A stretch of 64,000 bases of DNA, from assembly GCF_964355755.1 (NCBI RefSeq), contig NC_092680.1, positions 15,353,001 through 15,417,000 on the forward strand, read 5' to 3'. Every line of letters starts with the position of its first letter. Position 1 is the stretch's first letter. A program made the position numbers and the translations under genes. Below, one piece after another: positions 1 through 64,000 of this stretch. The notes under the pieces were generated by a model. The model ran no database searches. It was not told the DNA's origin and saw only the letters and a program-made list of their open reading frames with translations. This stretch comes from Antedon mediterranea (Eukaryota; Echinodermata; Crinoidea; Comatulida; Antedonidae).

Positions 1-89
1 AATTATATTATGGTACCTGTTTTTAATCTACAAAAATCTCACCGGTAGTGAGAATGGTATTAAAAATTGAATTTATATGTTCAAAATAG

Positions 90-1598
90 GCTCCACCATT
101 TCTGACTGTCAAAACTGACGGAGAAAAAGATGCCACGAATGGTCGATTTGAAGGTTTTATAATGGAGCTTCTGGAGGAAATCAAAAACTCCATCAAACGC
201 ATTGAGTTCAACTATGAAGTAGAATTGGTACCAGACGGTAAATATGGACGTCCAGGAAAATACAATCAAATCTGGAGTGGAATGGTTGGGGAAGTTTACC
301 GAGGGGTGAGTTTAAAGCTATATTTACGACGACTAAATCATTTATTGTGGTTTTAATGGGCAGGTGTTTGGTGGTAATATACGTTACGTATACTAACATA
401 AATATTCAATAACTTACTTTTAAGATGTTTTTATGTCTTACAGAAAGCTGACATTGCTGCTGGCCCGTTAACTATTCGACCAGATCGTGAGGCCGCGGTG
501 TCTTTCACATATCCCTTTATGGATGCTGGAATTAAGGTAATGGTGCAGCATCCAAACCACGTGAAAGACGATGTTTTCAAAGTCTTCTACCCGTTCGCAC
601 TAGAGGTCTGGATTTTGAACGGTTTTCTTTTCTGCTTGGTCGGCTTAATTATGTATCTTTGTAACTACTTCAGTCCATACGAATGGAGAGCTGCTGCTGA
701 AAGAGGAGATGTGTTTGAAGAGAATCGCGATAATTTCAATGCTAAGAACTCAATGTGGTTTTTGGCGTCGACGCTATTCCTTCAGAGTTTTGACGCATCT
801 CCAAGATCAAATTCAGGCCGCGTCATCACAGTCTTCTGGTGGGCTTTTGTTATTATTATGGTGTTCCTACTTCTCAGCAATGCACCATGGCACTTGAACT
901 TTTCAAAACGTCTTACACGAATTCGAACTATGCATGAGTTGGTGGACCAAATAGATGTTCAACCAGGGATGATAGATTCAGAATCAACGTTTTACTACTT
1001 CAAAAAATCAAGAGATAACACAGACAATCAGTTTTATAAGACGATACAGAATGCAAATCCAACTGGCAAGGTAAAAACAATGGACGAGGCCGTGAAGAGA
1101 ATTCGAGATTCTGGTGGATCGTACGCGTTCTTAGGAGAATCACCAATTTTAGAATATGAGGCATCCAAAGAACCATGTGATCTTTTTGTAGGCAGTGGAA
1201 CTCTTGTGCAGCAAAGTTATGGGTTGGCAGTACGCAAAGGTTCACCATTAGAAGAACCGCTTTCTCATGCCATTCAAAATCTTCGAGACAGTGGGGTCAT
1301 TCACCGTCTGGAGCTTAACTACTGGGATAGACACAGTCGATGTGGTAACTTGACTACTTGGGAAAAACAGGGTATATACTCTTATACTTCATACGATTTA
1401 AGGGGTGTATATTGCCTGTTTGTTATTGGATGTGTAATAAGTTTAATTGCGTTTGCTGTCGAGTTCATGTGTTGCAATCCAAGACGCAAGCGAAAACCAA
1501 CCAGACAATCTCAGCCTCAGCGAGAGACTTCAGCGGGCAACGGAACCAGTGTTGACTATGAACTAACCGGTCCAACCAAAGAGAAACAGTGGTTGTGA
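90..1598 (+). CDS. Ionotropic glutamate receptor 1, 3' part (partial at left edge)
   Basis: Two exons are visible, 90-305 and 444-1598, joined in phase 0, giving the last 456 residues. Exon 1 follows a TAG acceptor at 88-89 and encodes ligand-binding half S1 (RFEGF... to GMVGEVYRG). Exon 2 continues with KADIAAGPLT and the agonist-binding Arg in IRPDREAAVSF, then M1, pore loop, M3, S2, M4 and a basic cytoplasmic tail ending QWL. S2 keeps the acidic residue (GES) and both disulfide cysteines (EPCD and HSRCG). The pore loop reads LFLQSFDASPRS, with Gln at the Q/R-like position. The M3 gating motif is almost lost: LLLSNAPWH stands where SYTANLAAF is expected, with a Pro inside. The amino-terminal domain must lie left of the window. 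It is a paralogue of the two receptors on the opposite strand. The family call is firm; channel function is uncertain. Confidence 0.92.
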
Positions 1599-1657
1599 TC
1601 AAACGTGTATATAATATGTTTGTTTTGGTTTAGTTATGTTATGTCTCTTTGTATTGA

Positions 1658-1668
1658 AATAAAATAAA
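1658..1668 (+). promoter_or_regulatory. Polyadenylation signals of receptor 1
   Basis: Two overlapping AATAAA hexamers (1658-1663 and 1663-1668) lie 60-70 bases after the receptor 1 stop codon on the same strand. The spacing fits a short 3' UTR. Confidence 0.7.
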
Positions 1669-1792
1669 TAGTTTGAACTACATCACAGTAAAAGTAACTT
1701 AATTTAAAGTTTAAAAGAAACTCATTTTGTAATATAATACTAATCCAATATGTTATTAGAAGATCATTTTTATTTTTCAATTAATTGAAAAT

Positions 1793-1908
1793 AGCGAGCT
1801 TTCATTTCGAATCGAAAGGAGACGTAGGCCTAATTTCTAATAAAGAGTAATATGCGCATGCGTATAAGCCAAATATAAACGGTTCCTGTCATGAAATGAA
1901 AGCTCGCT
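1793..1908. mobile_element. Short TIR element (MITE-like)
   Basis: AGCGAGCTTTCATTTC at the left end is mirrored by GAAATGAAAGCTCGCT at the right end, about 116 bp overall. There is no coding capacity. The flanks show no clear target duplication, so the superfamily is not assigned. Confidence 0.55.
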
Positions 1909-3230
1909 TGTATTGTATGGTTTGAGTACGGTTTTGTAGAAAGTCTGTACTGATAAGCATGCAAACATTGCATTGTCTCACTGGATTAAATAAATTGATC
2001 AGTGCTACACTTCGTTTTGTGAGGTCTTTACTCAGAAAATACAAAACAATAATTAGACTTATTGATAGATTAAATAGACAGTCAGTATCGTGTTTCTTTT
2101 TATATAAATTTGTAACAAAAATGTAACACTTTTTTTAGTTTATGTATGGTGTTAACCAATACATTTTATTGAGGATTTTTTTATGATGTGAATAATGTTT
2201 ATCAGTAGTTACAAAAAAAAAAATGTGGCTTTCGAAAAAAAAAGAAGAAGAGAGGATCAAGGTTTGAAGAGGAGGAGACAGTCAGAAAGTGATGACCAGT
2301 TTCATTTGTCAGTCAAAAAGCATATAAAAATGTATAGAATTGTCTACTTTCCACTCCCTTTTCTCTCAGCTACTCCTATAATTAGTAATATTTATTTATG
2401 GATTTTTACATTTCATTATAAATCTAGTATAATATGTATATACATGCTTTCAGATAAGCTACAACAAAATTGATAATACCTTGAAAAGTGTTGTTACCCT
2501 CTAAGTACTTTTCTCGCTTAGGGCTTTCACGATTTAAAAAAAATATATTTTTAAAACTTTTCAGTGCATTGTAAATCGATAGATTGGAATAAAAAAAAGA
2601 AATATATTTGTTCGTTGTTGTTTTTTTTAATTTTAAATTTTTGTTATTATATACGGTAGTTTGCTTTGATTTGAAGATTAAAACGTACGATAAATCACGA
2701 AATAATAATGTTAATGAATTTCAAAATAATTGAGATATCAAAAAATATACATAGATATATTTATTTGATTTCTAATTTGTTCAAAAAAACTACTGTATAC
2801 CTACATTTTACCGGTCAAAGTACATTAATTGAAAAATGATTGAAAATGTGTGTTTACTTGTAGGTCTAAACCAGGTACCTGATTATTCTATGGCGGAAAA
2901 CATATTAATTTATCCCAAAATGCATACGAAAATTCGAAGTTGTCACCTTTTGACCCGATGTTGCAGCTTCCGGTGACTTGCGGAGGAATGTATAGTACGT
3001 GGTGCCTCTGTGGTCACTCTCAGACCTATTTAACGTATTACATAAGAACTGAAGGCCTTTTGCGGGGAGCAATATAATATAATTATTTATTAGAGTTTGT
3101 TTATGGTATATTTGTTTTTCAATCATAGAGTACAAACTTAGCCTTGGCCAGATTTTAACCGTGCATCAACCAAACTAATTAATATCAATATAAGTTAATA
3201 GTGCTGGAATTATTTATTTATTTTTTTCTA

Positions 3231-3317
3231 AATAATTCCTCAAACTACGAATGAATGTAGGTAGGCCTATACACTCAGAGTGTAGGCCTACATTCATTCG
3301 TAGTTTGAGGAATTATT
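3231..3317. repeat. Long hairpin (inverted repeat)
   Basis: The 30 bases 3231-3260 are the exact reverse complement of 3288-3317. The 27-base spacer itself carries two TAGGCCTA words, so the inner part pairs again apart from a 4-base insertion. Perfect arms suggest a recent insertion or fold-back. Confidence 0.85.
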
Positions 3318-4222
3318 GACTCACCATAGCATGCAACCTTTAGCGAAACAATTCTGCCGCTGTCATGCTTCTTTTGAATCGTTGGAAAATAATTCTACTG
3401 GTATCAACTCTTTCATCATTTCTAATTTTAAGACCAGGAATTACCATAACAATTAATCCTCGACGGTTTGATGAATATATATGTGTTGACTAAAGTAATG
3501 CACCAAAGAATTCTAAACCACAAAGAACGAATATTATAAAGTGGCATTCATTGTTAGGCCTACAGTACCGCTTTTTTACTATTGACAAACCAAACACTTT
3601 GTTGCATTAATAATTTTAAGCCAAAGAAGAAATATTCTTGTAGCCTGAGCTTTAAAGTTTAAATAATCTTCTCACGTACGAAAAACAGCAAGATCAGAAC
3701 AATAGACCGCCAGCTCAGAGACATTTGGTTAGATGAACTAGGTACCATTATCTGACTATTTTTATTTGGGCTGTCTGTCTACAATGGTAATAGCAATGAG
3801 AATAATCTGCTTAGATGTTATACAGTATAAAACAATTATTAATCAATGTGTTTATATTGGTACAAATAATTTCTTGTTGTGAAATATGAAATTCTAATTT
3901 CACTCTGGCTTCAGTTTCAGTAGGCTACTAATGACCAATAGCCGTCAGCATTTACATTGTCTGATATTCTGTATAGTTAAATTTATACGTATCCGTATTT
4001 TGTACTGTATAAGTTCACATTCCACCAGAGGTCACGGTAGTTTTATTGGTATGATACAGGAAGTAGTTTGTTCAAATAACAATACCCAAATGAGGTATAC
4101 GAAATCAATACTTGACCTTGTTGGTTTCCGCTCACAAAGCACCGATAAAAGGTTGTGTTTTGCTATAATATTTACCATTACATTACAGTATTTATAGTGA
4201 TGTGGTTTAGACTTTTATTTTA

Positions 4223-5124
4223 GGGCCTGTTTCTGCTGAGCAGAAATAATCGATTATTAACCGTTTATTTTTTTAATCGATTATTTTTGGGCAGCAGAAA
4301 CGGCGCAAAATAAAATAACCGATTAAAAATAACCGATTAAAAACACTCAATCCATTGCGTGTTTTAATCGATTATTTCTTGTTTTAACCGATTATTGCGG
4401 AGCAGTTTTGAGCTGCAACACAAATAGCGATTATTGACCTCACTTTGACCTCTAGAGTATGACAAACTTATTCACGTAACAAAGCATGCTGTTTTGCGCG
4501 ATATCGACGACGATCAGCAAAACCACGATCGCGATGTATACCGAATAACAATCAAATGTTAAACATTTGATTTGTATTATTTAGTGGGGGAGAATTATAC
4601 CGAGAGACTCCAGGATTCTGTGTTACAAGTACACCCGTTACATACCACCAGTCCAGGCTAACGATGTTTTACATGTCATTTTTTAGGCCTGTTGTCTGTT
4701 GACTTGTTTCGGTAGAAATATATAGCCTATAGGCCTAGCAGGCCGAAGGTAGAACCAACGAACGGCGAAACGAACTTTGTTCGCCGACGTGTCCTTATTA
4801 ATATAACATCATTATTCTGTTGTATGTGGTACGGTAGTAGGCCTAGATGTTTATTTTACAAATAATATAGCTTTACGTAAGAGTAATTTTTAATCCTACA
4901 TGTGAGAGTTTTAGGCAGCGATACGATGTTAAAACAAACCAACTCTCATCGGCCTTTCATAACTTGAACTCCGCTGTGGGGGAATGATGACGTGATTTTA
5001 AAAACCGATTACCTGAATAACCGATTAAAGTCGTAGCAATTTTCAATTGCAACGCGATTATTTTTGTGGTTTGCGGTGACTGGAAAAAATCGATTATTTT
5101 GATTTTTTCAGCAGAAACAGACCC
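4223..5124. mobile_element. Non-autonomous PIF/Harbinger-like element, 902 bp
   Basis: The ends GGGCCTGTTTCTGCTG and CAGCAGAAACAGACCC are inverted repeats with one mismatch. They are flanked by TTA at 4220-4222 and 5125-5127, the 3-bp TWA target duplication known for PIF/Harbinger. No transposase frame is present. Near both ends and inside, short variants of AACCGATTA / AATCGATTATT recur about a dozen times, as subterminal transposase-binding repeats often do. The superfamily assignment is inference from TIR and duplication. Confidence 0.75.
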
Positions 5125-5127
5125 TTA

Positions 5128-6556
5128 GACAAATACGATGAGATGAAATGTTTTTCGCCATTAGTTTAGTTGATATATGTATTTTTCTAATTTCTAGATA
5201 AACACACATGGCTTGCATAAATACTGTACTTCTACCGGTGTTTTATTTATAAAAATTACGTCATTCCAAATTAATTGTACTGTATATTAATTAGTCTATG
5301 GCGATTTGAATAGTGCATACACGATGATATATTATCATCCTCTGGTCGTGGAGGTGTTTTATACCTCCATGCTCTGGTTAATCAACGGTTTTACTGTAAA
5401 CTATTTATTGTTTCAAAATCGTATTGGCAGCCGCATGTGGTACTGTATTACCATTTCACTTTATATCGTCATTAATTATTGATTATCTTCCAGATGATAA
5501 TTATATCTTCACTTTCATAATTAACTACTACTATCGTCAGTCTGGGCGTAATAAGTAGGCCACTGTATGTTATAATAATCAACAGTACTACACATTTATT
5601 TTTGCGTGCACACGCGTTACATGTAATTTTATTATTTATTCTTATTTACTCCAGTACAGTTTTAATGGTCACAATTAATAACAAATAACATAGACAGTAT
5701 CAATACCAACTTTTATCAAACGAAATATTTATTTGTAAAAAAAAACCGTATGGGATGCCAAAGTCACAGAAAAATGTACAGTTTACATCTAAAAAATGTC
5801 CAAGGTGAACTAAACTATCGATTATTCATTTAGTGAATCAAAATCAACTTTACTACCGTTTACAGTATATCTAATAAAAATAAATCGTTACTGTACCTTA
5901 TCTGTGTAATAAAATAATAATTTTACAATAAAGTAAAATTAATAAAAGTAGGACATAGATGTTATTATTAGCCTACACATGACTGCAATAACTGCCTTAT
6001 ACCAAAAAAGAAAGTAGGCCTACAATAAATACGATTATATTTCTTACTCAACACACTAAAATAATAAACAGTTGTTTGATTATTATATTTTTGTTTCACT
6101 TTTCTATATAAAATTGGAATGCTTATTAAATATTAGCAATGATTACAAATATTGTACATCTCATAAATACAAGTTGAATTTTAACCGTATAGGCCTAACC
6201 ATGGTATAACTAAACCAATAATTCAAAATATTGAGTCTATTGTTTGGGATAAATGAAGGGATGTTTGGAACGGTCCAGGAAGAACCGTTTTCTAGGTTGA
6301 ACGACACCGTCAAAGTTGTTTGGGTACTTGACTAGTTACAGTATTTTAGGCCTTGTTAGTCTTACCCAAATACCAGTCACTATCACATTTAAATATTTAC
6401 ATTTAAAACAACCATCTGGAATAACATCCCGTATGTCTGATGTTATTATTCAAATATTACCTTATGGGTGTGTATTCTTAATTATACAAATTCATCTTTT
6501 CTAAATACCGAATTTTTTTCGTTTTGTACTTAAAACTATAATCTATCATGACGTTA
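5128..6556. other. Intergenic DNA downstream of receptor 2
   Basis: AT-rich; nothing recognisable beyond scattered TAGGCCTA words. It probably contains the 3' UTR of receptor 2 near its right end, but I see no convincing polyadenylation signal close to the stop codon. Confidence 0.5.
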
Positions 6557-7720
6557 TTACAAATATTCCGAAGCTCCGTGACTAGTAGGTTGTCCTGAGT
6601 TCCTGTAGGGGTCGTATTGTGGAGCACCTTGAGGATCGTCATTTCGTTCTCTTAACGTCGTCTGAAACATAGTTGGGCATAGCAGATATGCTACAAGATC
6701 GATAAAAAGCATTGTCAATGTACAACCAATACCAATCAGAAGAAGATAATAAGCTCCCTGTAAGTCTACCAAAGTAAGCGACCAAAGTCCTTCTCTTTCC
6801 CAGAAAGACACACCACTGCATTTACCCTCTCTGTATAACCACTTACTTTCCAGATCGTCAATGGTACCGTTTGATTTTAACATATTGATAGCATACGAGA
6901 GTTGGTCCCTTACGGGTGAGCCACTTTTTGTAGCCATAGCAAAGGCGAACTTATCCAAGGTATGTTCACCAATATGAACATCACATGGCTTATTTCTTGT
7001 GAAAAATTTCAGTACATTGTGGTCTTCGACAAGGCTGTAATCACCATCTAACTGACGAACACGTTCAATACCATCTTGGATGTTTCGAACGATGGGACTA
7101 GGTTGAGTGGTTGCTACCATGTTGAAGAGTGCTCTGTTCGAAGATGCACCTGATGCCTTCAAGTAAGAATATACAGGCGCGTCTTGCACAAGACCTACAT
7201 CAATCTCCACTTTCTGGTTAAGTTCATGAACGCTTCGGATGTGTGAAAACTGTTTGTTGAATACTAAAAACGATGAAAGATGCATGCCGTAGAGAAAAAC
7301 TGTTATCAATGCTAACATCCACCAGAATGCTGCCAAAACGCGTCCGGCATGTGATCTTGGCGAGGCGTCATAACTCTGCAGGAATACTGTGCTGACTGCG
7401 AACCAGATTGAGTTACGAATGTTGAAGTTATCTGCGTTGATTTCATATGATTTACCATCTTGCTCAATAACCGTTCTCCATTCATTCGGATTGTAATGGT
7501 TGTAGAGGAAAAGTAGACCAGCAACAAAGAACATAGAAAAGAGAGTGATGAACCAAACTTCAACGCCAAGCGGGTACATAACATTGAAGGAGTAGTCATG
7601 AATATTATTAGGATGTTTTACTAGAAGGTGAATCTTTCCTTTCAAATAAACATTTGTGAAGTCAATATCAGCTTCTCTTTCGTTAGTCTTAACTAGTGGT
7701 CCGGCAGCCGCATCTGCTTC
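6557..7720 (-). CDS. Receptor 2 terminal exon: late S1, pore, S2, M4
   Basis: A single 388-codon exon starts after TTAG at 7722-7721 with EADAAAGPLV and holds the whole channel module. The equivalent exon occurs in receptors 1 (444-1598) and 3 (18920-17724), each preceded by a Gly codon and a phase-0 intron, so this boundary is ancestral to the cluster. Confidence 0.93.
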   Translation of the reverse strand, partial: EADAAAGPLVKTNEREADIDFTNVYLKGKIHLLVKHPNNIHDYSFNVMYPLGVEVWFITLFSMFFVAGLLFLYNHYNPNEWRTVIEQDGKSYEINADNFNIRNSIWFAVSTVFLQSYDASPRSHAGRVLAAFWWMLALITVFLYGMHLSSFLVFNKQFSHIRSVHELNQKVEIDVGLVQDAPVYSYLKASGASSNRALFNMVATTQPSPIVRNIQDGIERVRQLDGDYSLVEDHNVLKFFTRNKPCDVHIGEHTLDKFAFAMATKSGSPVRDQLSYAINMLKSNGTIDDLESKWLYREGKCSGVSFWEREGLWSLTLVDLQGAYYLLLIGIGCTLTMLFIDLVAYLLCPTMFQTTLRERNDDPQGAPQYDPYRNSGQPTSHGASEYL

Positions 7721-10700
7721 CTAACATGAAGAAAGAAAAAAATATATATAATTATATAAAAACAAAGCATTTTGAATTAATAATACATGGTCAAGTGAAG
7801 GATACTATCAGGACAATTGATAGCGAACTTACCCCTTCCAAAACCTCTTTCATCATTCCATTCCATTCCCCAGTTACAATGTCTTTTGTTCCGTAGTTTC
7901 GTTCAGCGTCGCCAAACACCTGTAGACGGTAGTCTATGTCAATGTTCAGAGAACGCTGCAGTACATCTTGGATGTATAACATGAGATCAGGGAGGAAGCC
8001 CTCATATCGATCGTTCCCGGTGTACTGTGAAACAAACGATTGCTGCTCGAAATTTTTCCTCTCTTCGTCAGTCATGTATTCTTCCTTGTTTTTAGTCATT
8101 ACGTACGGAGCAACCTACATAAATCAAGGAAGATACATGTCAGCAACTAGTGTATTTGACTATCATATTAGTGATTATTATTATATAGATACATTTATGT
8201 ATAATTATTGAGTGTTTATGTCCATAATCGAATAACAACGCATACAAAGTATACTATTGACATTTTAACAGCATCGTTAAAGTTCTGTTTATTTTATCAA
8301 ACTTTTTGTGACAGAAAATGTGATGTGCCCAATAATGGACATGATGATGTCATATCACTACAACATTCACTACCATATTTGAACACATCACACTTTTTTG
8401 GTCAATTAGACAAAGCTCAGTTTACAAAGTACTGTTACCCAGTTACCCTACTCTGTATTTCAATGAAATGGAAAGAAAATTATTACTGAACGTTTCCTCA
8501 CCTCAACCATTGAAATAACAAGGTGATCGTCTTCAGCTTGGAAATAGGGATTCATCCTAAGTCGCTGATTAGAAAACCTGTCCGTTGCCCGTTTGAAGCG
8601 ATTGTATGGATCGTAGTCGGGATTTTGAAGCCACTCACCTCGCTAGAATAAAAACAAAATGTAATTGCATGAAGAATATCCACAATTGCTATTATCTTGA
8701 TAAAATCCTATGTTAAAAAATCAAACTACATAAATGCATAATTACCCAAAAATGGAGAGTATCTCCTACGCCACTGGTGATGGATATCCTATAGTTTTTT
8801 CTACTTCCTTGCTCGTCGAATGCTACACGACCAGACATTCCTTTAAAATCAACCTGAAAATAATGTAATCGCTTAAGTTTTGTACTTTGTGTCCAGTACG
8901 GTGATAATATCTAATCGGACGATTTTGAAAACCACCATGAATTAAAAATCTCAAACATATAATTTAAAACCAAACCAGATAGAGCACAATGGAATCAGAT
9001 GCTGATTTTAGGCGATTGTTGCCGACGCAAAGTCTTCTCCTAAACAAATTGGGAGACCTGTCTCCTCCATCACTCAAATTAACCGCGCAGTAGGTAGTTT
9101 ACAAACCATCGTACATACCTTGCTAAAGTAATCCATCAGAACTGAACTTTCCTCTTCTGAATCACACCGTTTCATGTTCACACGTACGTTATTGCTCTCG
9201 TCTACAAATGGACTGCCATTATCGAATCCTCCATTGTCTTGTCTGCATAAGAAATCACGATATTAAAATGTATAGGACAATTACTGAAGACAATATAGAT
9301 AAGCAAAACGTTCAAGAAATTAGCCAGAGAATTTAAATATTGATAACCGACTTAAATTAATGATTTGTATAACAGTTTGAATAGGGTGTATGAACGTACC
9401 CGAACATCTTCAAAGCATGACCCGTGGCAAGAGCGGAGTCAAAAGCCAATCGCTGTCGGAATTCGTATTTTGTACGCTGTTTGGTAGTGGTTGTTGAAAG
9501 ACTACCGTCCGTCTCATTCATATTGAACCTTGTGATAAATGCATCTGTGTACCGTAGTTCTTCAATAAATCCACGCTCCAAAAACAAGTCCTATTTGAAA
9601 AAAAAATGTTTAATCACTTATCCGATTCTATTTTCAGTACTAAGCATGATAGTCCTTCATCTTTAAAATTGGCATTTCATACATAACTGGAAACATCAAG
9701 GTATAAGCTATTGTAGGTAAATACAGTAACATGCCAATGTATAACAATCTAATTAACATCATTCTCCCTTGATTAATATGAATACATGTAAAGTGTTGAT
9801 ATAAAGTTAAACGTACGTCGTATGTTTTAAATGAAGGAGCTGTTGAGTTTTCATAACTAAAATATACGTGGTGTAGACCTACCGCAAATTCTATATCAAC
9901 ATACTGATTTCGCCATGTAAACCTTCAAACAATATAATACATGGAATATACTCGTACGGTATTCTACAGCAGTACTACATATGTGTGTTTTGTCATTTAC
10001 ATTTTATTATGAAATATATACTATATACGGTACTTACAATATTTGCAAGAATCCAATGAAATCCTTTAGTGACAATTCCATATTCGATGCCCTGTGAAAT
10101 TACAATAGAACTGTTAATATAATATATTAACCGTAAAGAATGGGATGTCAGCAGTGGTGGAATAGAGATAGAAAACTACTGCCGGGATGAGTGTTAAATA
10201 AAAACAAAATCTGTTATATAAATATTAGCACTTGTTTTAAAATTGTTAAGTAAAACATATGATTTGGAATAAAGTAAAAGAAATTCTAATTTAAAAAAAA
10301 ATTCCATTTTCTTCGACATTAAAACATATTTTTGTATTGTGCATTGTATATTTTTATTTTATGTCTGGTTCCGACAAATACTAACACTACTTTACTATAT
10401 AATATTGTCCGCGGCGCGTGGTGTCAAGGATCGTGGAGCTAATCTTGTCGCAGCCACAGATAAATCATTTTTTCTCCGAAGCCCACCATCCTGTTGTTAA
10501 CTGTTGATGGTGGGTTGAATTAAGATAAGGACGTAAAAATAGAACGTAGATTGCCTTGATTGTATTATGAAGGTTTATACCTCTATGATTGTATCAAGTT
10601 ATTTATTAGATGACATATTATTTACCTTTTCGATGACTTTCAAAGCGACTTCTTCTGTAAATGTGTATAGAATGATATTGTTTACGTCTTGTAAGCTATC

Positions 10701-13700
10701 AAGCTTGATGGCATCCGCAGTCTCCTGGAAGTCTTCTGAAAGTGGCAATAGACGAATGTTCCAGCCGTAGTCTCTTGCTCCAGCTAGCAATGGCGACAAA
10801 TTTTCGACAACTAAAAGAAAATAATAATGTGTTACTCTATGATTTAATTATTTTCGACAAATAAATAACATAAGTGATGTGTTACTCCATGATAACATCA
10901 TAGAGACAAATTTTCTCTATGGTCACACTGACACATCCCACTTTAGTTATTTTCTACAGATTAAAACCACATAGAACATAAAATAATGTTATACCTTTAT
11001 GAGATAGAATTCATGAATTGTAAACCAGTAAAATAAATTACTGTACCTGGCAAAAACAGTTATTTTACTGGTGTACAATTTATGAACTCTGTCTCATTAC
11101 TAAATCGAAACCAGATGAAAATGTTTTTAAATGTTATACCTTATAGGCCTAATGTTATATGGATTTTAAAATTTCTTCTTGAATATAATTCAAGAAATTT
11201 AAGTAAAATTATATCAGATATACTACTGTATAGGCCTACTTACTTTTACCGTTGTCGTAGAGTATTATAAAATCTACCCATTTAAAATATTGCAGCATGT
11301 CTACAAGCAAAGAATTGACATCTTCTGGTGATGGGTACATCTTTATAGCTTCCGATCCCAAACTACCTGGATCAAGGTTAATAATGGGCCCAGTTGCGTA
11401 AGTGATGGTGTTTGACAAGTCATCGCAATCTTCGCAGACATCTTCCGGAAGGACCAGAGAAGTTATTCCCCGGCCTACGACTGATCCAGAACAAACTGAA
11501 AAGGCAACAAATGAAACGGCATATTACAATTTGAAATTTGTGGTATACTAGTACACATATCATTGTATATTTACCCACATCCAACCTTAGTCCAGATTTA
11601 GGATTAATGCATGACGGTGATGTTTAGGCTAAAGTTTGACTAACGTAGGTTAGGTTAATTGTGGGTGAAAGGAGAATACAGATCACTAGTTACAGTATTA
11701 TATTTTATTTAGGTTTACTCGAGACATTGTACATTCAAATATTACTGTAGGCCTACTGATTAGTACTGTTCTTTTATTGTCTGACAGTGATTTATTTTAA
11801 ATATAACAATCTCAATCGGTCATCCTATAACGAGGATTTAAGAGATATCTTACCGTAAACAAGAGACTGCCAATAAGAGCCGTATGTTTGTCTTTGCAGA
11901 TCTAATCTGATAGTATCACGCCCCAGAAAATCTTCATCGTCTTCAACATGCTCCAGAGCATCACGCAGAATTTGATCGTACTCGCCATCTGCGCTACCTG
12001 TTCGTTCTCCAAGAATAGCAGCTACAAAAACACGAAATTATAAAATGTTATAAGAATATCACACATGGCCTATATGTTATAATTGAAATGTTTAATTAAC
12101 CAGTTTTTATTTGATTAAATTTATGATATCAATACTTATTGAGAAGCAAACAAATATTTCTCTAGACCGGCTCGATCATCCAACTTACCCCCGTTGGATA
12201 TAATACACTAATGTCGAAGATTCCGTTTAAAACGTGTAATATTGTACGGTAGATAAAACTCATACCAGAATATTTTCATTTCATTTTTATGTTAAAAATA
12301 TTCTCTATAATATTCAATATTCGTTATCAATAATTATATAATATTTTGTTTTAAATTACTATTATCATTATTAATTCTAGGCCTAATTTTGTTTTATTAA
12401 TATTCAAATACAACGGTACCGGTATTTAACCTATTATTTTTATTATAATCTGTATAGGCGTATATGGGTTGAATATGGGTTTACCTAAATTAAATATGTA
12501 TTACGAAATTAGACATGAAAAGTAGAACAATATCTGGAGTAAAATGTTACTCTTCCCTGCCCGCGATACGCTGTGTAATTAGTGGACCTGTTGGACCATT
12601 TAATCATTTGATTGCTGCTATTAAAATATTCTACACAAAACAATGGAACAATGGTATTGTGTTTTCGCGTAAACGCCCTTATTAATCATCATGTCTTCAA
12701 ATTAACATATTTTTTTTTAATGGCAGTGTACAACAATAATGCAAATGAGCTGCATATAAGACGAAATCACTTACAATACAGTAGCCTACTGAACACATCC
12801 TTTGTTAAAACACAATAAAAACCTAACATGCGTTTACAATAGGAAATTTCAGTAACAGGTATTTGAATAGTTAGTCGTTGTTTGAAAATCGATATTTCTT
12901 ATAGCTGAATATAACAGTAGAAGTTCTATGTAGCATATTTAAATATTCATGTACAGTACACTTAAATGTTCATAGCCTGAATTGGATGTAGTGTTTGGAA
13001 TATTTGTAATGATAGGCCTGCATAGGCCTAAAAAACATGGTTATTGTGCTCAAATTGCAGAATACCGACAGTATTCTCTCTACTCTACGAAATATTCCAC
13101 TTTTTTATACGGGACAAGAATTCTAAAACGAAGGAGACAAAGCTTCATTTAACCGTTGAATCATCTGCCTGACTGACTAAGTGAAAATAATATTTACAGT
13201 AAAGAAACCGAGGCTTACTGAGTAAATGGAGGGATACTGATAGGCATTGATCGCTGTTTCATTACAATCATTTACCAGAGAGTTGTTACAACCCTGCATT
13301 TACACGTTAACTTCCTCCTGCAGACTGTATTTTGAGAATAAGGTCATTGTCATTCACTCCCCAACGTCCAATCACCATAATTACCATTTGATTAATTACA
13401 ATCATCGTGTAATTCAAGTACTTTTCACTTGTAAATATGGGACGCAAACCCACAAATTATTCCGAAATAATGTATATGTTTAACTTTAACCAGGTTTAAC
13501 ATGATATCTAAAATGACAGCTTGACGTTCCATTATGCGAGATGGTCGCAAAAACATGAACATTAAACTTTAGAATTTAAATTTCAAGTGGGCTGTTGGTT
13601 ACTAAACATCGTACGATCGATGAAAGAATTTGTTTTTTCACATTTTTAAATCTCTGGGGCTATTTGATATATAACGCTAGTGCACCTGTGAATGATTTTA

Positions 13701-15922
13701 TTTGAAAAGGTATTGTTCGAAGGCTGGGCCTCTGTTCCGACCCTTTGAATTCAAATCGGTTGATTTACGATCCTCAATGGTGGTGGAGCTTTTTCTTTGC
13801 AATATTATTAAGAGCCACAGAGGTACCTTTTTGTTTTCGAAACATGCCTGAGGATTACGAAATAATTGCTTTTATTTATTTTGAGCTAGAATTTCGAGAG
13901 ACGACGGAGCTTGTATATTGTTAACGAGGTTTTTTATTTGCTGCAGTTATATATGTCTCATCATTGTAATCCAGGTACACAGTTTACTTATTGTACAGGT
14001 ACACTGGCATGGCAATTTCAGTCAAAGTGTTGAAACTGAGAATTAATTAATTTAATTTAATTAATTAATTTATAAAGAGTAATAAAGCAATACTATGTGA
14101 GAAAGTCTATAGGAATTTGTTTGCAAACAAAAAATGAAAACAAAATGTAGATGAAAGGCACCAGTCCGTCTGAAAGCGTTTGATTTATTACCTCAGAACT
14201 TGACCCATGACCCACGATGTGTGTCTCAAGTAAATTAGGACATACGGGTATAAACTCCAAAATAACAAATGATATTTTCAGATTCACAACGGAACAAACA
14301 GAAATAATATTCATTAACAAGATCTGATCACCAGGGTTTTTGAAATTTTAATAGGTGTTCTGAAATTCTCACCGGGTGGAAGGAATTGACTTCCTTTGTG
14401 GATCAGGCAAACATTTCCTAATTGGCGTCAAAATGTCTATATTTAAAATAATATAAGTGACTTCAGAAAGCAGAAACGAGTTTGTACAATTGGTGATGAA
14501 TCTCATTTTACACGGGGTTAATCACAATATTGTCAATGAATAATTCTATAGGTGGATTAGCCTCATCAACGGCCAACAAAAGACATTATTGTGTTGTGAA
14601 AGTATTAGGAATTTATGACTCATAAACCCGATACATTTCCAATCACCTACTGTGATAGTTTGGAGGGCGCCCTTATTTGTGATAATAACACATTATTAAT
14701 TTAGATCTGAATTGATTAAAATATTAAAGTTTTAAAAATAAAACAATGTTTTTAGTTTTAGAGTTGGATAGTTAGATTTATTGAAATATCTGTCAAACTC
14801 AGCTCAATGCACGCACAAATGATTCAAAGCCCCTTCTTGTACCATATTTTTAAATACAGTGACATGCTGTTTTGAGGATCTATTCTCGTTTTTAATAAAT
14901 TCTCATAATACCATTTAACTTCTTTTTCAGGAAATTATATCGTGAACCGCCAACCTTACTTGTGTTTCTTGACATGTTTAAATATGATTAATGTTGATCT
15001 ATGAGGGTTAACTATACTGGTTGGTATTACTGTAGTTCAAAAATGTAATTTTATCTTTTGTGTAAATGGGCACTAAGGCCACTCGATTAGTTTCATTAGC
15101 ATAATTAAACTTAAAGGTAGTGTAGTTAGTACCCATAGACGTGTCCCTGCATATATTAACGAATGATGCATGAGTTTGTTTCGATCTTTTGTTTTCGTTC
15201 TGAATATGTAGCGTTAATTGATTTGTTTTTAATTGTGGTAGATAATGAATAGTTGTGAGAAGTCCATTACGCCATCGACAAAGAATGTGTTTCCTTATAT
15301 ACAATACAGTATACTCTTTCAGCACGCCTTCTACACCTCAATGAGACTTCCATTAAAATGTATATACGTAGTGAATTACAGGCTAATAAATTAGAAATAT
15401 GAGTACGGCGCCTAACGAAATGTGACGCTTTCCAGCCACAAAAAATGGAAAGTAAAAGTCGCGCGTTCTCCGGAAACTCCATGCCCGGGATCGGAGACAT
15501 TTAATGTATAACGTACGGTATGATTACATTTGTTTTGTAAACATTTCAAATATACGCAAACATAATTAGTAATTATATTACTTATTTTATGAGCAAAAAA
15601 AGATTAATTGTTACAGAACAAGCTAACACACGCATAACATTGGATACACAACATTAACCTTAGTTAATTATATTTTAGTATCGACATATTATTCTGTAAG
15701 CGACTGGTATATCAAATGTATGTTACCATCCACCAACCATCAATACTTACTTGTAATGACAATGATAAAACCAATGAATTACATTTCATTAAAAAAAATT
15801 AATAATCTATTGGTACGTAAAAAAAATAGAAAATGAAACTTACCCATTTTCAACTCGAGAGCTAAAGCCACTTGTTGGACTCCGATGGAGAGAAGCAACA
15901 CAAGCGCCACTTTCATCGCCAT
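6557..15922 (-). CDS. Ionotropic glutamate receptor 2, complete
   Basis: Eleven exons, all on the minus strand: 15922-15844, 12021-11854, 11495-11244, 10810-10626, 10091-10038, 9590-9400, 9242-9119, 8853-8746, 8642-8502, 8114-7833, 7720-6557. They total 2748 nt (915 aa) in one frame. Exon 1 encodes a signal peptide (MAMKVALVLLLSIG...). Residues about 27-425 form the amino-terminal ANF-receptor-like domain, followed by S1 (RYEGFLPDLM), M1 (about 581-601), pore loop (FLQSYDASPRS, Gln near 643), M3 (about 658-680), S2, M4 (about 848-874) and a short tail ending EYL. The S1 Arg (NEREADIDF) and the LBD disulfide cysteines (KPCD, GKCSG) are kept. The gating motif is degenerate (LYGMHLSSF), and the S2 Ser-Thr pair is replaced (QDAPV). 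The end of exon 3 has two possible donors; GTAAGT at 11243 was chosen. Membrane receptor identity is secure; ligand and gating are not. Confidence 0.93.
8279..8420. mobile_element. Degenerate MITE in receptor 2 intron (TCTGTCTAC family)
   Basis: The core (ATGTGATGTGCCCAATAATG, then ATATCACT and ACACATCACACTTTTT) matches elements at 48250-48390 and 63194-63353. Its ends AAGTTCTGTTTAT and ATTAGACAAAGCTC are decayed versions of the family TIR. It lies between exons 8642-8502 and 8114-7833. Confidence 0.5.
10370..10530 (+). repeat. Dispersed intronic repeat, copy 1
   Basis: The segment with CGGCGCGTGGTGTC, then CTTGTCGCAGCCACAGATAA and CCGAAGCCCACCATCCTG, recurs in similar form at 17523-17690 and 19660-19860. 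All three copies lie in or beside the receptor 2 and 3 genes. Termini are not resolved; it is probably a transposon relic. Confidence 0.55.
11001..11095. repeat. Imperfect hairpin in receptor 2 intron
   Basis: About 36 bases at 11001-11036 pair with 11060-11095 with about five mismatches around a loop of about 23 bases. A direct repeat, AATGTTATACCTTA-like, lies on each side (about 10986 and 11132). It is in the intron between exons 11495-11244 and 10810-10626. Confidence 0.65.
12022..15843. other. Receptor 2 first intron (3.8 kb)
   Basis: Separates the signal-peptide exon from the first amino-terminal-domain exon. I see no further exon, RNA gene or clear transposon. An AT palindrome made of TTAATTAA-type words is at about 14040-14075. 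Confidence 0.6.
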
Positions 15923-17723
15923 GATATTTCAGTTATATTGTAGCTATAAATTTCGATATATTTATTAGTTGCACCGCGGAAATATGGAGAATACAAGATG
16001 GCGTTCGACGCCAAACTGTTTTCTGTACTATATTGAAAGTAGAAATCGCTTGAATAGAGATGATTGTTATTCTGTTCTTGTGATCCGGGTCTACGACTAA
16101 GCCATCAATTCTACCTCGGAGGTCACAAAGAAAAGGAACAATAGCGAATTGGCTTTTGAAATGGAAAAGAATGATCGGCCTATGTCCTTCAATATGTAGA
16201 ATTGTTGTTCAACCTTATAAGGGTCTATTGATTGTTTGAAAATGGTATTAATGATGAATTCCTGTGATGACGCTTAATCTGACAAAAACAGGTCAGAGCT
16301 TACCAGCTAAGGCTCCACCCACTAATGAGGTGATGCTTTTTTCTCGATATGCGCAGACGACAATTATTGAGTTGTTGATAGGTTTTTAACATAAATATAC
16401 AGATATTATATGCCTAAAATAAACAATAATATCTATAATATATATATGGTAAGCCTTATATAGATAATTTAGCAGTAATTAACATATTTATTCTACTACG
16501 TTAAAAAATATATTTAAAAATGTAGTTACAGAAAAGCTATCAAAATACACTTTTAAAAAGGGGGCGCTACACACATTATTTCTTATGGTCTAATTATGGA
16601 ACGTGTAATATACGAACCGGTATTAATGTCAAATCACATCGATTTAAGAATACAAATGTTTACATACAAAAATGAAATAGGAAATAATAATTGAATTCCA
16701 GACTTTCGAAATTAAACCTTACTAGGTACATGCATCAATCTGTTAGGTCTAGTATAATTATTTTCTTTAGTTAACAACGTTTATATCGAATCAAAGATCG
16801 AGTCAGACTATAATGTATATAGGCCTAATAAAATTATCACTATAAATACAATTGTATTATTTTGTTTACATTGTTTGACGTTAATATTAGTGCTAAAAAC
16901 GCTATGAAGGATGTGATCTAGTATCTTGTACGTGTTGTTATTAACAGGCCAGGCTATTTATTGACTGAAAAGGTGTTCTTTTTCTTTTAGTTTTTTTTAA
17001 ATTTAGTTTTAAGATAAATAATCCACATGCTATGAATAAGCATAGATTCGTTAAATAAATAATGTTTATCATCTTAGGGCCAGGCAGAGTTAAAAACTAA
17101 TATATTTTATATAAATATCTTAATATATAATATCGACAGAATTGTCAAAAACAATAATTAAAATCGATTCTTCTGAAAATAAAATAGTCACAATTAAATT
17201 TAAGCTACAACGACTAAACAACACATAACTTGAAAACCGTCGATAGAAAATACCGTATTCGTCATTTCACTGTCCAACAGTTTAAGGCTGTTATTAATCA
17301 TCAGACAACGTCTGTTTTACTAAGTCTAACGATACTTTTAGTTAGTTTACTAGCAGTAAAAACATAGAGGGCCTACTTTAAACATTCTTACTTAACTTGT
17401 TTTCATTGGTACAAAGCATTGTATATTATAAAAGCACATACTAAACATTTAAATTGCATTCTATATAAACACGCCTTCTTTATAAATAAGAGTGTTTATC
17501 AAGACATACATCATTTGTTGATACTAAGGTAATCTAACAACAGAACGTTGAGCTCGCCTTGCCTAGGAACTCGTAACAGTCCTAAATACTAACTGAATTG
17601 AAAATAAGTTTTCGTAGTGGAACTGATCGTGTCGCAGCCACAGATAAACTATTTGATTTCCGAAGCTCAGCATCCTGATGTTAGATTGTCATGTGGATAC
17701 TAATACTGATCATGTAAAATTTA
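15923..17723. other. Intergenic DNA between receptors 2 and 3
   Basis: Holds the receptor 2 promoter region and the receptor 3 3' flank. The dispersed repeat copy 2 is at 17523-17690. No exon and no strong TATA box was seen close to the receptor 2 start codon. Confidence 0.5.
17523..17690 (+). repeat. Dispersed repeat, copy 2
   Basis: Contains AAGGTAATCTAACAACAG, GAGCTCGCCTTGCC, GTGTCGCAGCCACAGATAA and CCGAAGCTCAGCATCCTG, parallel to 19660-19860 and 10370-10530. It lies just downstream of the receptor 3 stop codon. Confidence 0.55.
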
Positions 17724-20700
17724 CTATAACCATTCTTTTAGTTTTGTTGTTGTTGCTTCTGTTTGCTCGTACACATTTGTTTCGTTACTACGCCCATTTC
17801 CTACGGAGTGACCTCTGCCATTAAATGGCTGCCTTTCTCTTGATGGAATTATTGAAAAATGGCGTGGATAATGAAGCAACATATAACACATTAGTTCCAA
17901 GAAGAAAAACAGAAGAGAAAAAGCTATGCCAATAAACAAAATATAATAAACACCCTTCAGATCTACAATAGTTAATGAGTACAATCCCTGATTGTTCCAG
18001 ATAATAAATTTGTCATCACACTCACTTTTGGGTTGAAGCCACTTCGCCTTTAATTCTTCTAATACATTCCTTTCTCTTAATAATCTTATTGCGTATGATA
18101 GCTGATCTCGAAGTGGCGATCCTGACTGTACAGCTAATCCATATCTTGATGTACCGATAGCCTGTGGTATAAGATAGACATTGCATGGTTCGTCTGTAAT
18201 TGCGTTCAACATTAAAGCCGTGTCAGCTATAAATGCATACTTTCCATTGCTTTCACGAACCCTTTCGACACCACTTCCAACGTCACTGACGTAGGGATGC
18301 TCTATACTTGTGAACATGTACTCAAACATAGAATGGAGATCTCCAGTTTGAGAATTTTCTAGCATTGCATACGTAGATCCGTCCTCTACACAGCCATAAA
18401 CAATATCTGTCTGTCTGAGAAGGTCTCGCGCTGTCTGATAAAACGCTTGCTGTTTATTAACGCGCATGTAGTCTGAAAGATTTGCAAAATACGATGTTAA
18501 CATTATGAGCGAAAACAACCACCACACTGCTGCTCCAATGCGACCGGCATGCGAACGGGGAGATACGTCATAGCTTTGAAGAAATGCACTTGATGTTAAA
18601 AACCATATACAGTTCTTAAAATTAAAATTTTCCTCGTTTATTGGATGAACTTGCTCTTTTCTGGCTGCGTTACTCCACTCTAATGGGCTATTTCGGTTGA
18701 TGATCCACAGTAAAGAAGCTACAAGAAATAATGCTACTAGGTTGGCACACCATACTTCAGTGCCAAGTGGGAAGGCAAAACTAAAGTCTCGAGTATTGTA
18801 TACGTAACTGGGATGCTTTACTAGTATTTGAACTGGACTTTCGCCAAAAGGTATTGTAAAATCAATTACTTCTTCGCGTTTATCAGTAATAATTAACGGG
18901 CCAGCAGCAACGTCAATTTCCTGCACAAAAATATAAAATAGTAATATTACCTATGAAAACAATACATACCGGTAACAATAATGATAACAGAAATTTATAT
19001 AACGCTGACCATATATTTTGTTTTTTTTTGCTCAAGAGATGGAACTTTCAATTAAGGTTGAAAAAAGCGGGCGTAGAGCGGCATAGTGTGCTATGAGATT
19101 ACATAGATATATTGTATTGTGAAAATAAACTGACTAAATAGTCAGCAAAAGCCATTAATTGATATACACAGCGTTGTTTATTGTGAGCCAATGAAGATTC
19201 TTAAGGATAGGAGTGGTGCCGGTAATTATGATGACAACGTGTGAAGGAATATGAAAACAGTAATACTACTAGTATATGCTTAAAGAGAAATACTGTAATA
19301 CTAACCCCGTTGACTACTACGCTAGCCCACTCATTACTGTCCTCGTCACCATAACCGCCATTGTATACATTAAGTTCATAGTCAAAGTCAATGCCCTCAG
19401 TTTGTAATACATTACGCATTTCTGCCATGAGATCTGGAATATATCCTTCATACCGTGCATTACCTTCCAGAAATTCGTTGTTTTCGTCATGTTCAATTTC
19501 CATCATAAATGGTGAAATCTAAGAAAAATCAAGAAACTAGAATTCTAGCAATTTCATAAAATATAGACAAGGAATATAACGCAAACCTTCATCCACATAA
19601 AACGCCAAAGAAAAAACCCGTTTTGACGAACTTGCAAGCACCCTACATACAGGCCCAATGTTACCAAGGTAATCTAATAACAGGACAGTAAGCTCGTCTT
19701 GCCAAGATAGAAACTCGTAACAGTTCTTTGATCTTATGTCTGGCTGCGAAAAATACCAACAGTACTGTACCATGTACATATTCTACGCGGTGCGCGGTGT
19801 CTGGAAAACTGATCGCGTCGCAGCCACATATAAACAGTTGCTGTTAGATTGCTTTGCTTTGACGAACTTGCAAACATCCTACATAAGGCTCAAATAAGTT
19901 ACCAGCTAGTCCAGATGTTTAGTCAGAATGGGAAGACCGATAATTAGTGCAATTTTACAATAATGACTTACCATGACGCTACCGATGGAGACTTGGTCTC
20001 CAGCTGTCCACATAGAGTTAATGTTTAGGTGGACAACTTCAGCATCCAATTCATCGTTATACAATTTCTCCCATTGATGACGATTTTGAATCCATTCTCC
20101 ACGCTATAAATTTAATGATTAACAATAACACATGAATGTAAATTTTCATATCACCATGTCATTATTTACTAACGAATGTCAAAAATAAGATATAGACCCC
20201 CAGATTACATCCCTAACGCAAGTGTTTGTTTCTTTGTTTTGATTGATTTTTTGATTTGAACAAACAAAATATCTTCTACTGACGATAAAATCGCAAGACA
20301 GTTTTATCCTTAAAATAGACTGAAAAAAGCATAGGCGCCCTCATACTTCTGCAAAATAATGCTACGGTTAAAGGTTAAGTTGAGCACTTTTTAATCTTAA
20401 GCCTGTCCGGTTCTCTAGCTCTGAATCCGCCACTGTTTAGGATAAACATTCAGGTTTTTGTATCAGACTAAACCAGAAAATAACAATCAATCTTACCTGA
20501 AAATCCATGCTACCTCCTTTGCCGCTGAAGATTGATATCGAATAATTTATACGTTTTCCCATCTCGTTGAAAGCAACGTTTCCCGTAAGGCCTTGCAGTT
20601 GCAACTATATAATAAAAGCATCATCCAAGTTAAGTCATGAATTTATTCAAATATTTACACTATATTTATTGTATTTACATAATGTCTTATGTAACGAAGT

Positions 20701-23700
20701 TAACCTCACCACTTTCAAATACGACATGAGAATAGAAAAACTATCAATAATTTGAAATTCAGTTGGTAAAATGAATGTTATCTAAAATCATATGTTATGG
20801 TTGTATACAAGTTGCAAAATAGGAAATGAATGTTTTTTTTAAAAATATAATAGTATGAATAATTATTTATGTTTATGCTTACGTCTTTCATAAGATGATC
20901 TGCGAGTGGATTTCTAGGCATTTTCCAGCCTTCTTCTTCTTCAGCACATTTTGGCATTATGGTATTTCCAGTTAGGCCTATTGACGAATGAGGAGAGCCT
21001 TTCATTTCATTACTGGAAAATAGTAAACCAACAAATATAAATGAAAGGGAGTGAAATTATTGGCATCATTACTGGAAAATAGTAAACCAATATAAATGAA
21101 ACTGTACCGCATGCAATTATTTGCTTCAATAAGAAAATGCAATATAAAGAGCTTCGATATGCAACGAGCACCGACCTAACTATGTCAGGTCAATTGTCGG
21201 TCGTCGCCTGGACCTAGAAATCGGTGGAGGAGCGAGGATTCACGTGCCAATATCCCCGCATACGCAGAAATGAATGACGTAAATTGAAAATGGTGTTCAT
21301 TATGTTCCAACATGTATGTTGTAGGCCTTTAATATACACATAATAAAGTAGGCCTACCGGTTTAAAGTTAGAAACAAGAAAAATACACTTTAAACTACTC
21401 TTTTGGTTTGAAAGCCGTACCACGCTACATACAAAGAACAAACCGGTGGTGAGTTTTTTATTTGGTCACGTTTTGGTGATCAATCTCGAGTCACCAAGTG
21501 AACTGACAACGAATTCGTTAAATATTTATGTTACAATGTTTTTTCTACATTACCTGTAACTCTCTACAGCTTTCGAAAGAGCAAACATTGTATCAAATAC
21601 AAGCTTTTGTCGGAACTTCCATTCTCCATGAGACTCTAAATTGTACGTTGAATAAGCCACACTCGTATCAGCAGTCATTTTGAAACTAGTTACGTAGGCG
21701 TCGATTTCCAGAAGACTGTCAATATGTGTGCTATTGTAATAAACGTCTGGATTTCCAATGATCCAATGATAATCAGTTTCCATCAGTCCATAGTCAATTG
21801 ACTAAGAAATAAAGATAAAAATTAGAATAGCCTTGAAATAAGAAAAACATAATAGTATATCTATAAATAAATAAAATAACAGCAGAAAACTTGGTTACTT
21901 CATTGTTTTAATCACTACACATTTGTTTCGTACGACCAGCATGTAGCTGGCCGCACTCTTCAGGTGAAATGTAAAACATAAGTATATCTATAGTATGTCT
22001 AAGTTTCCTAGTTATGAGGGGTTAGAGTGTGAGCAATGCGCACTCCGCGGCAATGGTTACACTCATCGGGAATTTGCGTGATGAGTACCCCGGTATAAAT
22101 AATAATTTGATATGGAGAATTGAAATGTTCAAACATTTTATAATCAGCCGTTCATCAACGAATAATGTTGAGATTCTTAATTGAAATTTAGAGTAACACG
22201 TACGCTCATCAATGTGTTTATCAGTACTTCTTCTGTTCCGCAGTAAATCAGAATATTTCTAAAGTTTCCTTCAAGAACTATCTCCTCCCACGATTCCGTA
22301 TCGACATCAACAAATTGTAAGTTCCAGTTATGTTCAGATGCCTTATTTTGAAACGGTTGCAGATTCCTATATACTAAATAAAGAGATAATAAAGATAATT
22401 ATGTATAGTCTGGCATGGCATGATTAGATACTACAGCAATATTTCTTCTTACGGTGGTTCAACAAACACGGAATAGCCGCATTTTAAAACTTAAAGATAT
22501 ATTGTCCCCCTAAAAAAATTTTTTTTTAGAATTTTTTTGTTGAATATGTTATTTTAATGTCACATAATAGTTATTCACTCTCACAAAAAATTGGGTCTGA
22601 AAAAAATTTATTTACCTGAGAAAAATGTGATTTAAAGCAAAAAATTGTCAAATTGTCTGGAAGACAATGAGTTTTTTCGGTAATTTAACAGTTTATTTTG
22701 TCTTTTTATAGGTGAAATGATTTTTTTCCCCCGTTTTTTTTCTTATGGAAGTGAACAACTTCATTAATACTGCAAAATGGCCTATTCAAAGTCCGATTTT
22801 AAAAATCTTTATTTTTCATGATTTTGGGGGACAATACATCTTTAAGTTTTGTGCAATCATGTGTGTGATAATTCTATATATTAATTTTTGTTTATGTCTT
22901 ATATTTATCTGGGTTTTTTTTTCGAGTAATATTTGCCAATCTTTAAGAAGAATTTATATTCTTATTTATTATGATATATGGACAAACAAGGCATATTTCA
23001 GTATAATTCATTAAATGCTATTAGTACACAATAGCATGCGATATACTGGACAGATAATGACATACCGGTAACGTCATTAACGAGAATTGTTGGTGTACGT
23101 ATTGGTCGTGGGCCTTTACTCAAGATGTTACTGCTCTCTTGTGGACAGCCACGTCTGTGACCAGGCTACAACTTACCCATATGGGTGTCAAAAAGTACCA
23201 AAAGCTCTTTCCATTTGTAGTGAGAGATAACATCAAAGAACAGCTCATTCATGTCTTCAGGAGAAGGATGCATGTTGAATACGTGTGATCCAAGACTACC
23301 ATGGTCCATACTGAAGATTGGAGTTGATCCCTCAACCAATGTAGCTGCTATGTCTAAACAATGTGTACATATGTCTTCACTTACAAGAAGCGCTGATGGT
23401 CTATTGTTTTTAATCCATTGACAAACTATAACAAAATAATATAGAATAAAACTGACTCATACATTGATGTTACAAACTGAAGGATCTTATAATGTCCGCA
23501 GTATTTTCATAAAAGAATGCATGTTTCCAGTTAACTTTAACTTTTACAAGTAGTAATTAAGTAGCATGTATCATATAATTTTGAATACATAACAAAAATT
23601 GTAAATTTACCAGAACTGGTTGCTTTCCAGTAATGTTCAAATTGAGCGATTTTGTAGTCTAATGTAAGTTTGTTTCCGTTAGCAGCAAGATCACGATCAC

Positions 23701-34981: not shown

Positions 34982-35559
34982 CTATATAGATATGTTTTCT
35001 GGTACTTTTAAGCCTGTGATTACCTTCATTTGCCAATGCGGGCTATAGACAGCAAAACCTGGAATAAGATGCACGTTTTTGTTCAGAGGAGACTTTAAAA
35101 GTGGAACCATGCTTTTATGATCGAAAAACATTAAACTTCCTTTCTGATAATTGACCATTATTCCAACATGTGAACTAGTGTGGCTAAGTTGTGTATGAGT
35201 TGCACGTGTAACGAACCATCGGAAAAGACCATCGTCTGTAGCTTCTAGAGCCCACGAAGTGTTATCCATTCCGAGCGCCGTCGATCGCGTGGATGATGAC
35301 GCAACTACTCCAATAGACGCCACGATAGCGGGGGCGTTCGATGACAATCGTTCATTGACTTTACAGTTAGTACCCTGTCGTATTCGATTTATACTAGCCT
35401 CCCAATATTGAACACCATTCTCCAAAAAGATCTTCCCTACGGCGTAAGTTGCCCCGTGAGCTGTAGGTGATACTCTCTCAATTGTACTTAAAACTTTTCC
35501 GTCAGGGGAAATTCTCATGACACTAGGCAATAAGTTCACATCGATGTTGAACTTTAGTG
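34982..35559 (-). CDS. TRIM terminal exon: SPRY domain
   Basis: The exon begins after TTTCAG and encodes 192 residues including YAVGKIFLENGVQYWEASI, LEATDDGLFRWF, HVGIMVNYQKGSLMFFDH and IPGFAVYSP, the usual succession of PRY/SPRY strands. The protein ends LKVPENISI. The domain is the likely substrate- or partner-binding end. Confidence 0.9.
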
Positions 35560-63353: not shown

Positions 63354-63569
63354 GACAATACAGTTGTTAATCTATGTCTCTCTCTCTCTTGGTAGTTCCT
63401 CCATTTATCATCAGACGAATCCTAACCCAATTCATAAATACCCATACAAATAAAATAAATGTAATTGAGGTGGTGTTCATTCATGTTTTCCAATTTAGGA
63501 TTTTTGATACAAATTTCTAGACATATCCGTTGTAGTAACTTTCTCTACATGGTGTGCATAGTACCAGCA

Positions 63570-64000
63570 GCAGAGAAAAATACAGCACAAAATTGTCACT
63601 TATAAATTTAGTTAACCATCTTCTACAACAATTTGATGATGGAAATAATTCTATTGGCATATTTATAGACTTTATGAAAGCATTCGACACGATTAATCAT
63701 GAAATATTAATATCTAAACTACAACACTATGGAATAAGAGGTCAACCATTATATTGGTTAACCGACTATTTAAAAGGAGGATTTCAATACGTGGCTGCTG
63801 ACCAAATTAGTTCTGATAAACTCCCAATCTCATGTGGAGTCCCACAAGGATCAGTATTGGGTCCAACCCTGTTTCTGATCTACAAAAATGATATTTCTCA
63901 TTCTAAAAAATGTTTTTGAATTTAGGCTGTTTGCAGATGATACTAATTTATTTCATGATTTCTCTGGCAATAATATTGATCTCTCTATAATTAATTATAA
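63570..64000 (+). pseudogene. 5'-truncated LINE reverse transcriptase, frameshifted
   Basis: The frame to 63919 holds reverse-transcriptase blocks: IFIDFMKAFDTINHEIL, LYWLTDYLKG and ISCGVPQGSVLGP. At about 63905-63915 the frame is lost by a one-base change; the catalytic FADD block (63937-63951) is in the next frame, followed by NLFHDFSG. Upstream of about 63570 no LINE sequence is readable, so the copy is 5'-truncated. It runs off the right edge. Best fit is a CR1/Jockey-type non-LTR element. Confidence 0.85.

Follow-up and report, generated by a model that had tools for sequence, protein, structure and literature searches.

We consider it probable, at roughly 60%, that the three glutamate receptors in the window (the whole stretch of Antedon mediterranea DNA analysed, 64,000 nucleotides, C11:15353001-15417000) make up half of a tandem array of six genes, that this array is one divergent clade of the AKDF subfamily, most likely of the Phi class, and that its channel gates have been remodelled cluster-wide. 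The most economical reading is that of a striking natural gate variant, an expanded Phi-type array and not a new kind of receptor. What our analysis mainly adds is that the change of the gate is cluster-wide and ordered.

Organisation and integrity of the gene cluster

The original prediction described three linked receptors between positions 444 and 18920. The linkage stands, but the count does not: a Pfam Lig_chan search of the 354-Mb genome gave six matches on C11 (15.316-15.372 Mb), three of them inside the window, and the models of the six genes together extend over ~64 kb (15.3126-15.3768 Mb). Similarly, the interval runs from the start of the terminal exon of receptor 1 to that of receptor 3, but the genes reach further (Table 1). 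No further close copies appeared among the matches listed when the genome was searched with the proteins of receptors 1 and 3, and the cluster is thus of at least six genes.

Table 1. Positions of receptor features and other elements, in window coordinates
Feature	Position	Strand	Basis or detail
Receptor 1 (cluster gene 4)	about -2933 to 1598	+	spliced alignment
Receptor 1, amino-terminal exons, upstream of window	-2933 to -28 (C11:15350067 onward)	+	spliced alignment
Receptor 1, 3' part in window	1..1598	+	spliced alignment without stops; Pfam on joined model
Receptor 1, exon S1a	90-305	+	spliced alignment
Receptor 1, terminal exon (S1b, M1-M3, S2, M4, tail)	444-1595; stop TGA 1596-1598	+	spliced alignment
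Receptor 1, gate motif LLLSNAPWH	867..893	+	after WW in M3
Receptor 2 (cluster gene 5), ten exons	6557..12016	-	terminal exon 6560-7720, stop 6557-6559
Receptor 2, gate motif LYGMHLSSF	7268..7294	-	after WW in M3
Receptor 3 (cluster gene 6), nine exons	17724..23764	-	terminal exon 17727-18920, stop 17724-17726
Receptor 3, gate motif SYFANLSDY	18468..18494	-	after WW in M3
TRIM-like gene pieces	34982-41619	-	RING and B-box 40975-41619, SPRY 34982-35539
Open frame between RING/B-box and SPRY pieces	36251-36730
Tandem array	39946-40647		23-base unit, about 31 copies, 92% matches
Reverse transcriptase fragment	63554-63919	+	Pfam RVT_1

Spliced alignment, seeded by the reading frames of cluster genes and then applied to the remaining ones, gave six models of 861-885 residues in 8-10 exons, free of stops and with GT-AG junctions throughout except for one GC donor. 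No signal-peptide exons were found in these models, every one of which begins just past the expected first exon. The Pfam domain scan covered the three window receptors, and all have ANF_receptor, Lig_chan-Glu_bd and Lig_chan domains in that order and above cut-off; genes 1-3 were judged by the homology of their upstream exons, 27-50% identical across the cluster, and also have amino-terminal domains. A full amino-terminal domain had been claimed for receptors 2 and 3, as Pfam bears out, but it is not peculiar to them: the possibility that receptor 1 lacks this domain was rejected, its exons having been found upstream of the window.

The terminal exon is unbroken from S1b to the tail in the cluster genes, whereas kainate-like and AMPA-like genes have introns there, and its sequence is 31-53% identical among the six paralogues. 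Pairwise comparison of the cluster genes shows differences at 0.63-0.71 of third and at 0.26-0.43 of second codon positions, a contrast that has the appearance of a constrained protein; because synonymous change is saturated, these differences are given instead of dN/dS. The C-termini of the six receptors are alike (AKWL, QQWI, KQWL, KQWL, SEYL and KEWL), those in the window lying at 1584-1595, 6560-6571 (-) and 17727-17738 (-) at the ends of reading frames L006, L003 and L005, and the shared tetrapeptide is possibly a binding motif for a PDZ-type scaffold. The window also holds pieces of a TRIM-like gene, a tandem array and a reverse transcriptase fragment (Table 1).

Remodelling of the M3 gate

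The SYTANLAAF motif is regarded as near-obligatory for glutamate-receptor gating, single changes in it leading to leak or disease, and in AMPA structures T617 and A621 line the closed pore. This gate is intact in none of the six cluster members. The sequences reported for receptors 1, 2 and 3 were found exactly as quoted, with one, three and five matches to the nine positions, respectively, and the genes outside the window read LYGLNLSPY (gene 1), LYLTNLTFW (gene 2) and LYISNLPFF (gene 3). In genome order the matches of genes 1-6 are 3, 3, 4, 1, 3 and 5. With six genes scoring 1, 3, 3, 3, 4 and 5, the graded loss that had been proposed across three copies is rejected as a sampling effect of the window. 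The loss is instead ordered and local: Y616, N619 and L620 are each kept in five of the six, F623 in two and A618 in one, and T617, A621 and A622 in none. On what is only the simplest reading, absence from all six would make the losses at 617, 621 and 622 older than the duplications. These losses extend to receptor 3, where 617 is F, 621 is S and the lurcher position A622 is taken by an aspartate; it is therefore not the canonical partner that it had been taken to be.

The degradation of the motif was confirmed against other receptors. Among ten canonical receptors of AKDF type, the nine gate columns are 95% identical pairwise and the rest 41%, compared with 37% in the gate and 44% elsewhere in the cluster (316 shared columns). 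Only three of 308 nine-column windows reach an identity as high as that of the canonical gate, and the largest conservation losses in the analysed stretch fall in windows starting at 615-618. When nine columns were drawn from the 82 other highly conserved ones, an equal loss occurred in 0.023% of 100,000 random draws; together with the position of the worst windows, this shows that the degradation of the gate is not due to chance. A rank test of gate columns against other columns kept in at least nine of the ten canonical receptors gave p = 0.024. The rat GluA2, GluK2 and GluD2 sequences were taken from PDB search alignments. The GluD2 query matched 6lu9 along its entire length. In the GluA2 query, residues 1-71 served only for finding exons of the crinoid's own genome, and GluA2 in the tree and conservation analysis begins at the PDB-aligned stretch, plus two residues AD.

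Elsewhere in the genome there are two kainate-like (C7), two AMPA-like (C5) and one delta-like (C3) genes, and NMDA-like genes number at least two (C2, C6); the type of two further receptors on C3 is unsettled. SYTANLAAF or TYTANLAAF is present in all nine non-cluster receptors with a readable M3 (the fragment at C2:25096 kb being excluded), the delta-like gene having TYTANLAAF. The two unsettled receptors (L042 and L043; C3:33177-33178 kb and 32330-32331 kb) have a canonical gate and S653-Q654-P655 and form a supported pair of their own in the tree; they could belong to epsilon or to a different AKDF group.

Pseudogenes, assembly error or mis-splicing could in principle mimic a lost gate, but we regard such an origin as extremely improbable, and none of the six gene models checked gave any support for it. 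The altered features are common to six paralogues with terminal exons as diverged as stated above, and the genes have no stops, regular splice sites and constrained codon positions. A splice or assembly error, for which the original prediction had allowed, is unlikely also in that the motif lies within one uninterrupted exon of ~1.15 kb.

Changes in the cluster are not restricted to the gate. In all six, L or F at 586 stands in place of the Q/R-site glutamine and S588 in place of the next glycine, with Q587 and D590 present throughout, and the M3-S2 linker (624-635) has a net charge of +2 to +4, compared with -2 to +1 in other receptors. WW605-606 and the M3 packing residues are retained in all or nearly all six. 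At the ligand site, R485 and an acidic residue at 705 (E or D) are present in every member. G653-S654-T655 with Y732, published as the glutamate pattern, occurs in genes 1, 3 and 6; position 655 is V in gene 2, and receptor 1 has E653 in an otherwise nearly complete site. Receptor 2 is strongly changed (V480, A653, P654, V655, F732) and would be the cluster member least likely to bind glutamate. Judged by these residues, the amino-acid site is largely intact in five of the six, and decay of the gate does not appear to be coupled to decay of the ligand site, since receptor 1 combines the most altered gate with a nearly complete site.

The terminal exon of receptor 1 was modelled with AlphaFold2. 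With 16 sequences the model reached a pLDDT of 67.9 (about 63 near the gate), which is a moderate confidence. It predicts M1, M4, a pore helix and an M3 helix that runs without a break from 123 to 158, and the best PDB matches of the receptor 1 model in Foldseek are AMPA receptors. A proline-caused break in M3 was considered and rejected: the helix was interrupted immediately ahead of P148 in a model from six sequences (pLDDT 55.9) but not in the 16-sequence one, and as the two disagree this detail is unreliable and is not relied on here.

Class assignment

The six cluster receptors form one long-branched clade, supported at 100/100, next to AMPA plus kainate, and are joined to these classes rather than to NMDA with support of 93/92 to 94/92, values that carry no star. 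By its place in the tree the cluster thus belongs to the AKDF subfamily. In the best tree it lies outside each of the AMPA, kainate and delta classes, and AU tests uniting it with one class alone gave p values of 0.261 (AMPA), 0.107 (kainate) and 0.052 (delta), none of them below 0.05. Ramos-Vicente et al. (2018; PMC6307864) defined the Phi class in cephalochordates, hemichordates and echinoderms, and later work has reported it in some protostomes and placed it with AMPA and kainate (PMC12226733). No Phi member has Q586, in some SYTANLAAF is poorly conserved, and the authors called for functional study of the degenerate Phi gates (PMC6307864). The motif is indeed usual but not obligatory in iGluRs, being absent from Lambda and some Phi members. 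The Phi traits, absence of glutamine at 586 and an acidic residue at 590, are present in all six cluster receptors. From tree position, elimination and the published descriptions, the cluster is most likely of the Phi class.

Functional readings and comparison with known receptors

The proteins would still assemble as tetramers of glutamate-receptor type, probably mixing cluster members, and most of them may bind an amino acid. M3 would then still be pulled when the binding domain closes on its ligand, but the bundle crossing would differ, its seal being larger or more polar, and the outer ring would be positive. Rather than a dead subunit, one would expect a channel that is gated but unusual in its opening, conductance or resting leak. 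More specifically, it is conceivable, and we put it forward tentatively, that the replacement of T617, A621, A622, the Q/R glutamine and the filter glycine, with the positive ring at the outer mouth, makes up a coherent alternative gate, controlled by ligand but sealing and conducting by a chemistry other than that of SYTANLAAF, possibly in obligate heteromers within the cluster. The original prediction that receptors 1 and 2 may be differently gated is a fair one as regards altered gating, the genes being intact, but it is not confined to them, all six gates being altered.

Alternatively, the gates may not seal, giving constitutively leaking channels that are inhibited by ligand, of the kind seen in lurcher-type delta receptors and in the AKDF1 receptor of placozoans. 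We find this rather doubtful, despite the loss of A622, the lurcher position, from all six. The aspartate of receptor 3 matches GluD2-A654D, which is constitutively open (740 nA versus 18 nA in the wild type; PMC10840383), T618 of gene 2 matches GluD1-A650T, also constitutively open (2220 versus 200 nA; PMC10840383), and constitutive activity occurs naturally in Trichoplax AKDF1 (PMC12226733). Yet the effects in delta receptors were measured in canonical backgrounds, and in the cluster the neighbouring 617, 621, 625 and 629 are also changed and may compensate; furthermore, large residues at 617 (GluD1-T649I, GluD2-T649M) gave no significant leak (PMC10840383).

The original prediction allowed for modulatory or non-conducting subunits that need a partner such as receptor 3, a reading that can be widened to signalling without ion flow and to any canonical partner. 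The gate, the Q/R site and the next glycine are indeed all changed, canonical AMPA- and kainate-like subunits in the genome are possible partners, and vertebrate delta receptors illustrate that channels without agonist-evoked current can be retained (PMC10861852). Nevertheless, this role seems unlikely for the cluster: receptor 3 is not canonical itself, and the retention of Q587, D590, WW605-606 and the M3 packing residues in all or nearly all members would be odd for a useless pore. Our order of preference is ligand-gated, then leaking, then modulatory channels, between which sequence alone cannot decide. The cluster would be a direct test of the 2018 remark that degenerate Phi gates need investigation. 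With the same positions changed together in six natural receptors under apparent constraint, it would also reveal which elements of the gate are indispensable (here Y616, N619, L620) and which are replaceable.

The divergence of the cluster had also been likened to that of IRs. The IRs of arthropods and other protostomes are a family derived from iGluRs by lineage-specific expansion and divergence, and it is in this that the cluster resembles them. The label is nonetheless a weak one, since, by comparison with descriptions of IRs, all six cluster receptors differ in having amino-terminal domains and R485 and in grouping beside AMPA and kainate, with amino-acid sites largely intact in five. Delta receptors (GluD1/GluD2 and invertebrate GluD) are likewise AKDF members, with gating unlike that of AMPA receptors, in which single M3 substitutions at positions altered in the cluster cause constitutive opening, but rat GluD2 retains SYTANLAAF and a grouping of the cluster with delta is nearly rejected (AU p 0.052). 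Trichoplax AKDF1 is similarly a natural AKDF receptor with unusual gating, a constitutive leak blocked by glycine (PMC12226733); its leak is ascribed to the loss of acidic 705, however, a residue kept in all six cluster receptors. The Phi class, compared by description, shares with the cluster a position in AKDF beside AMPA and kainate, D590 kept without Q586, a poor SYTANLAAF in some members and mixed types of ligand site (PMC6307864). To this description the cluster adds its array of six genes, a positive M3-S2 linker and the absence of T617, A621 and A622 from every member.
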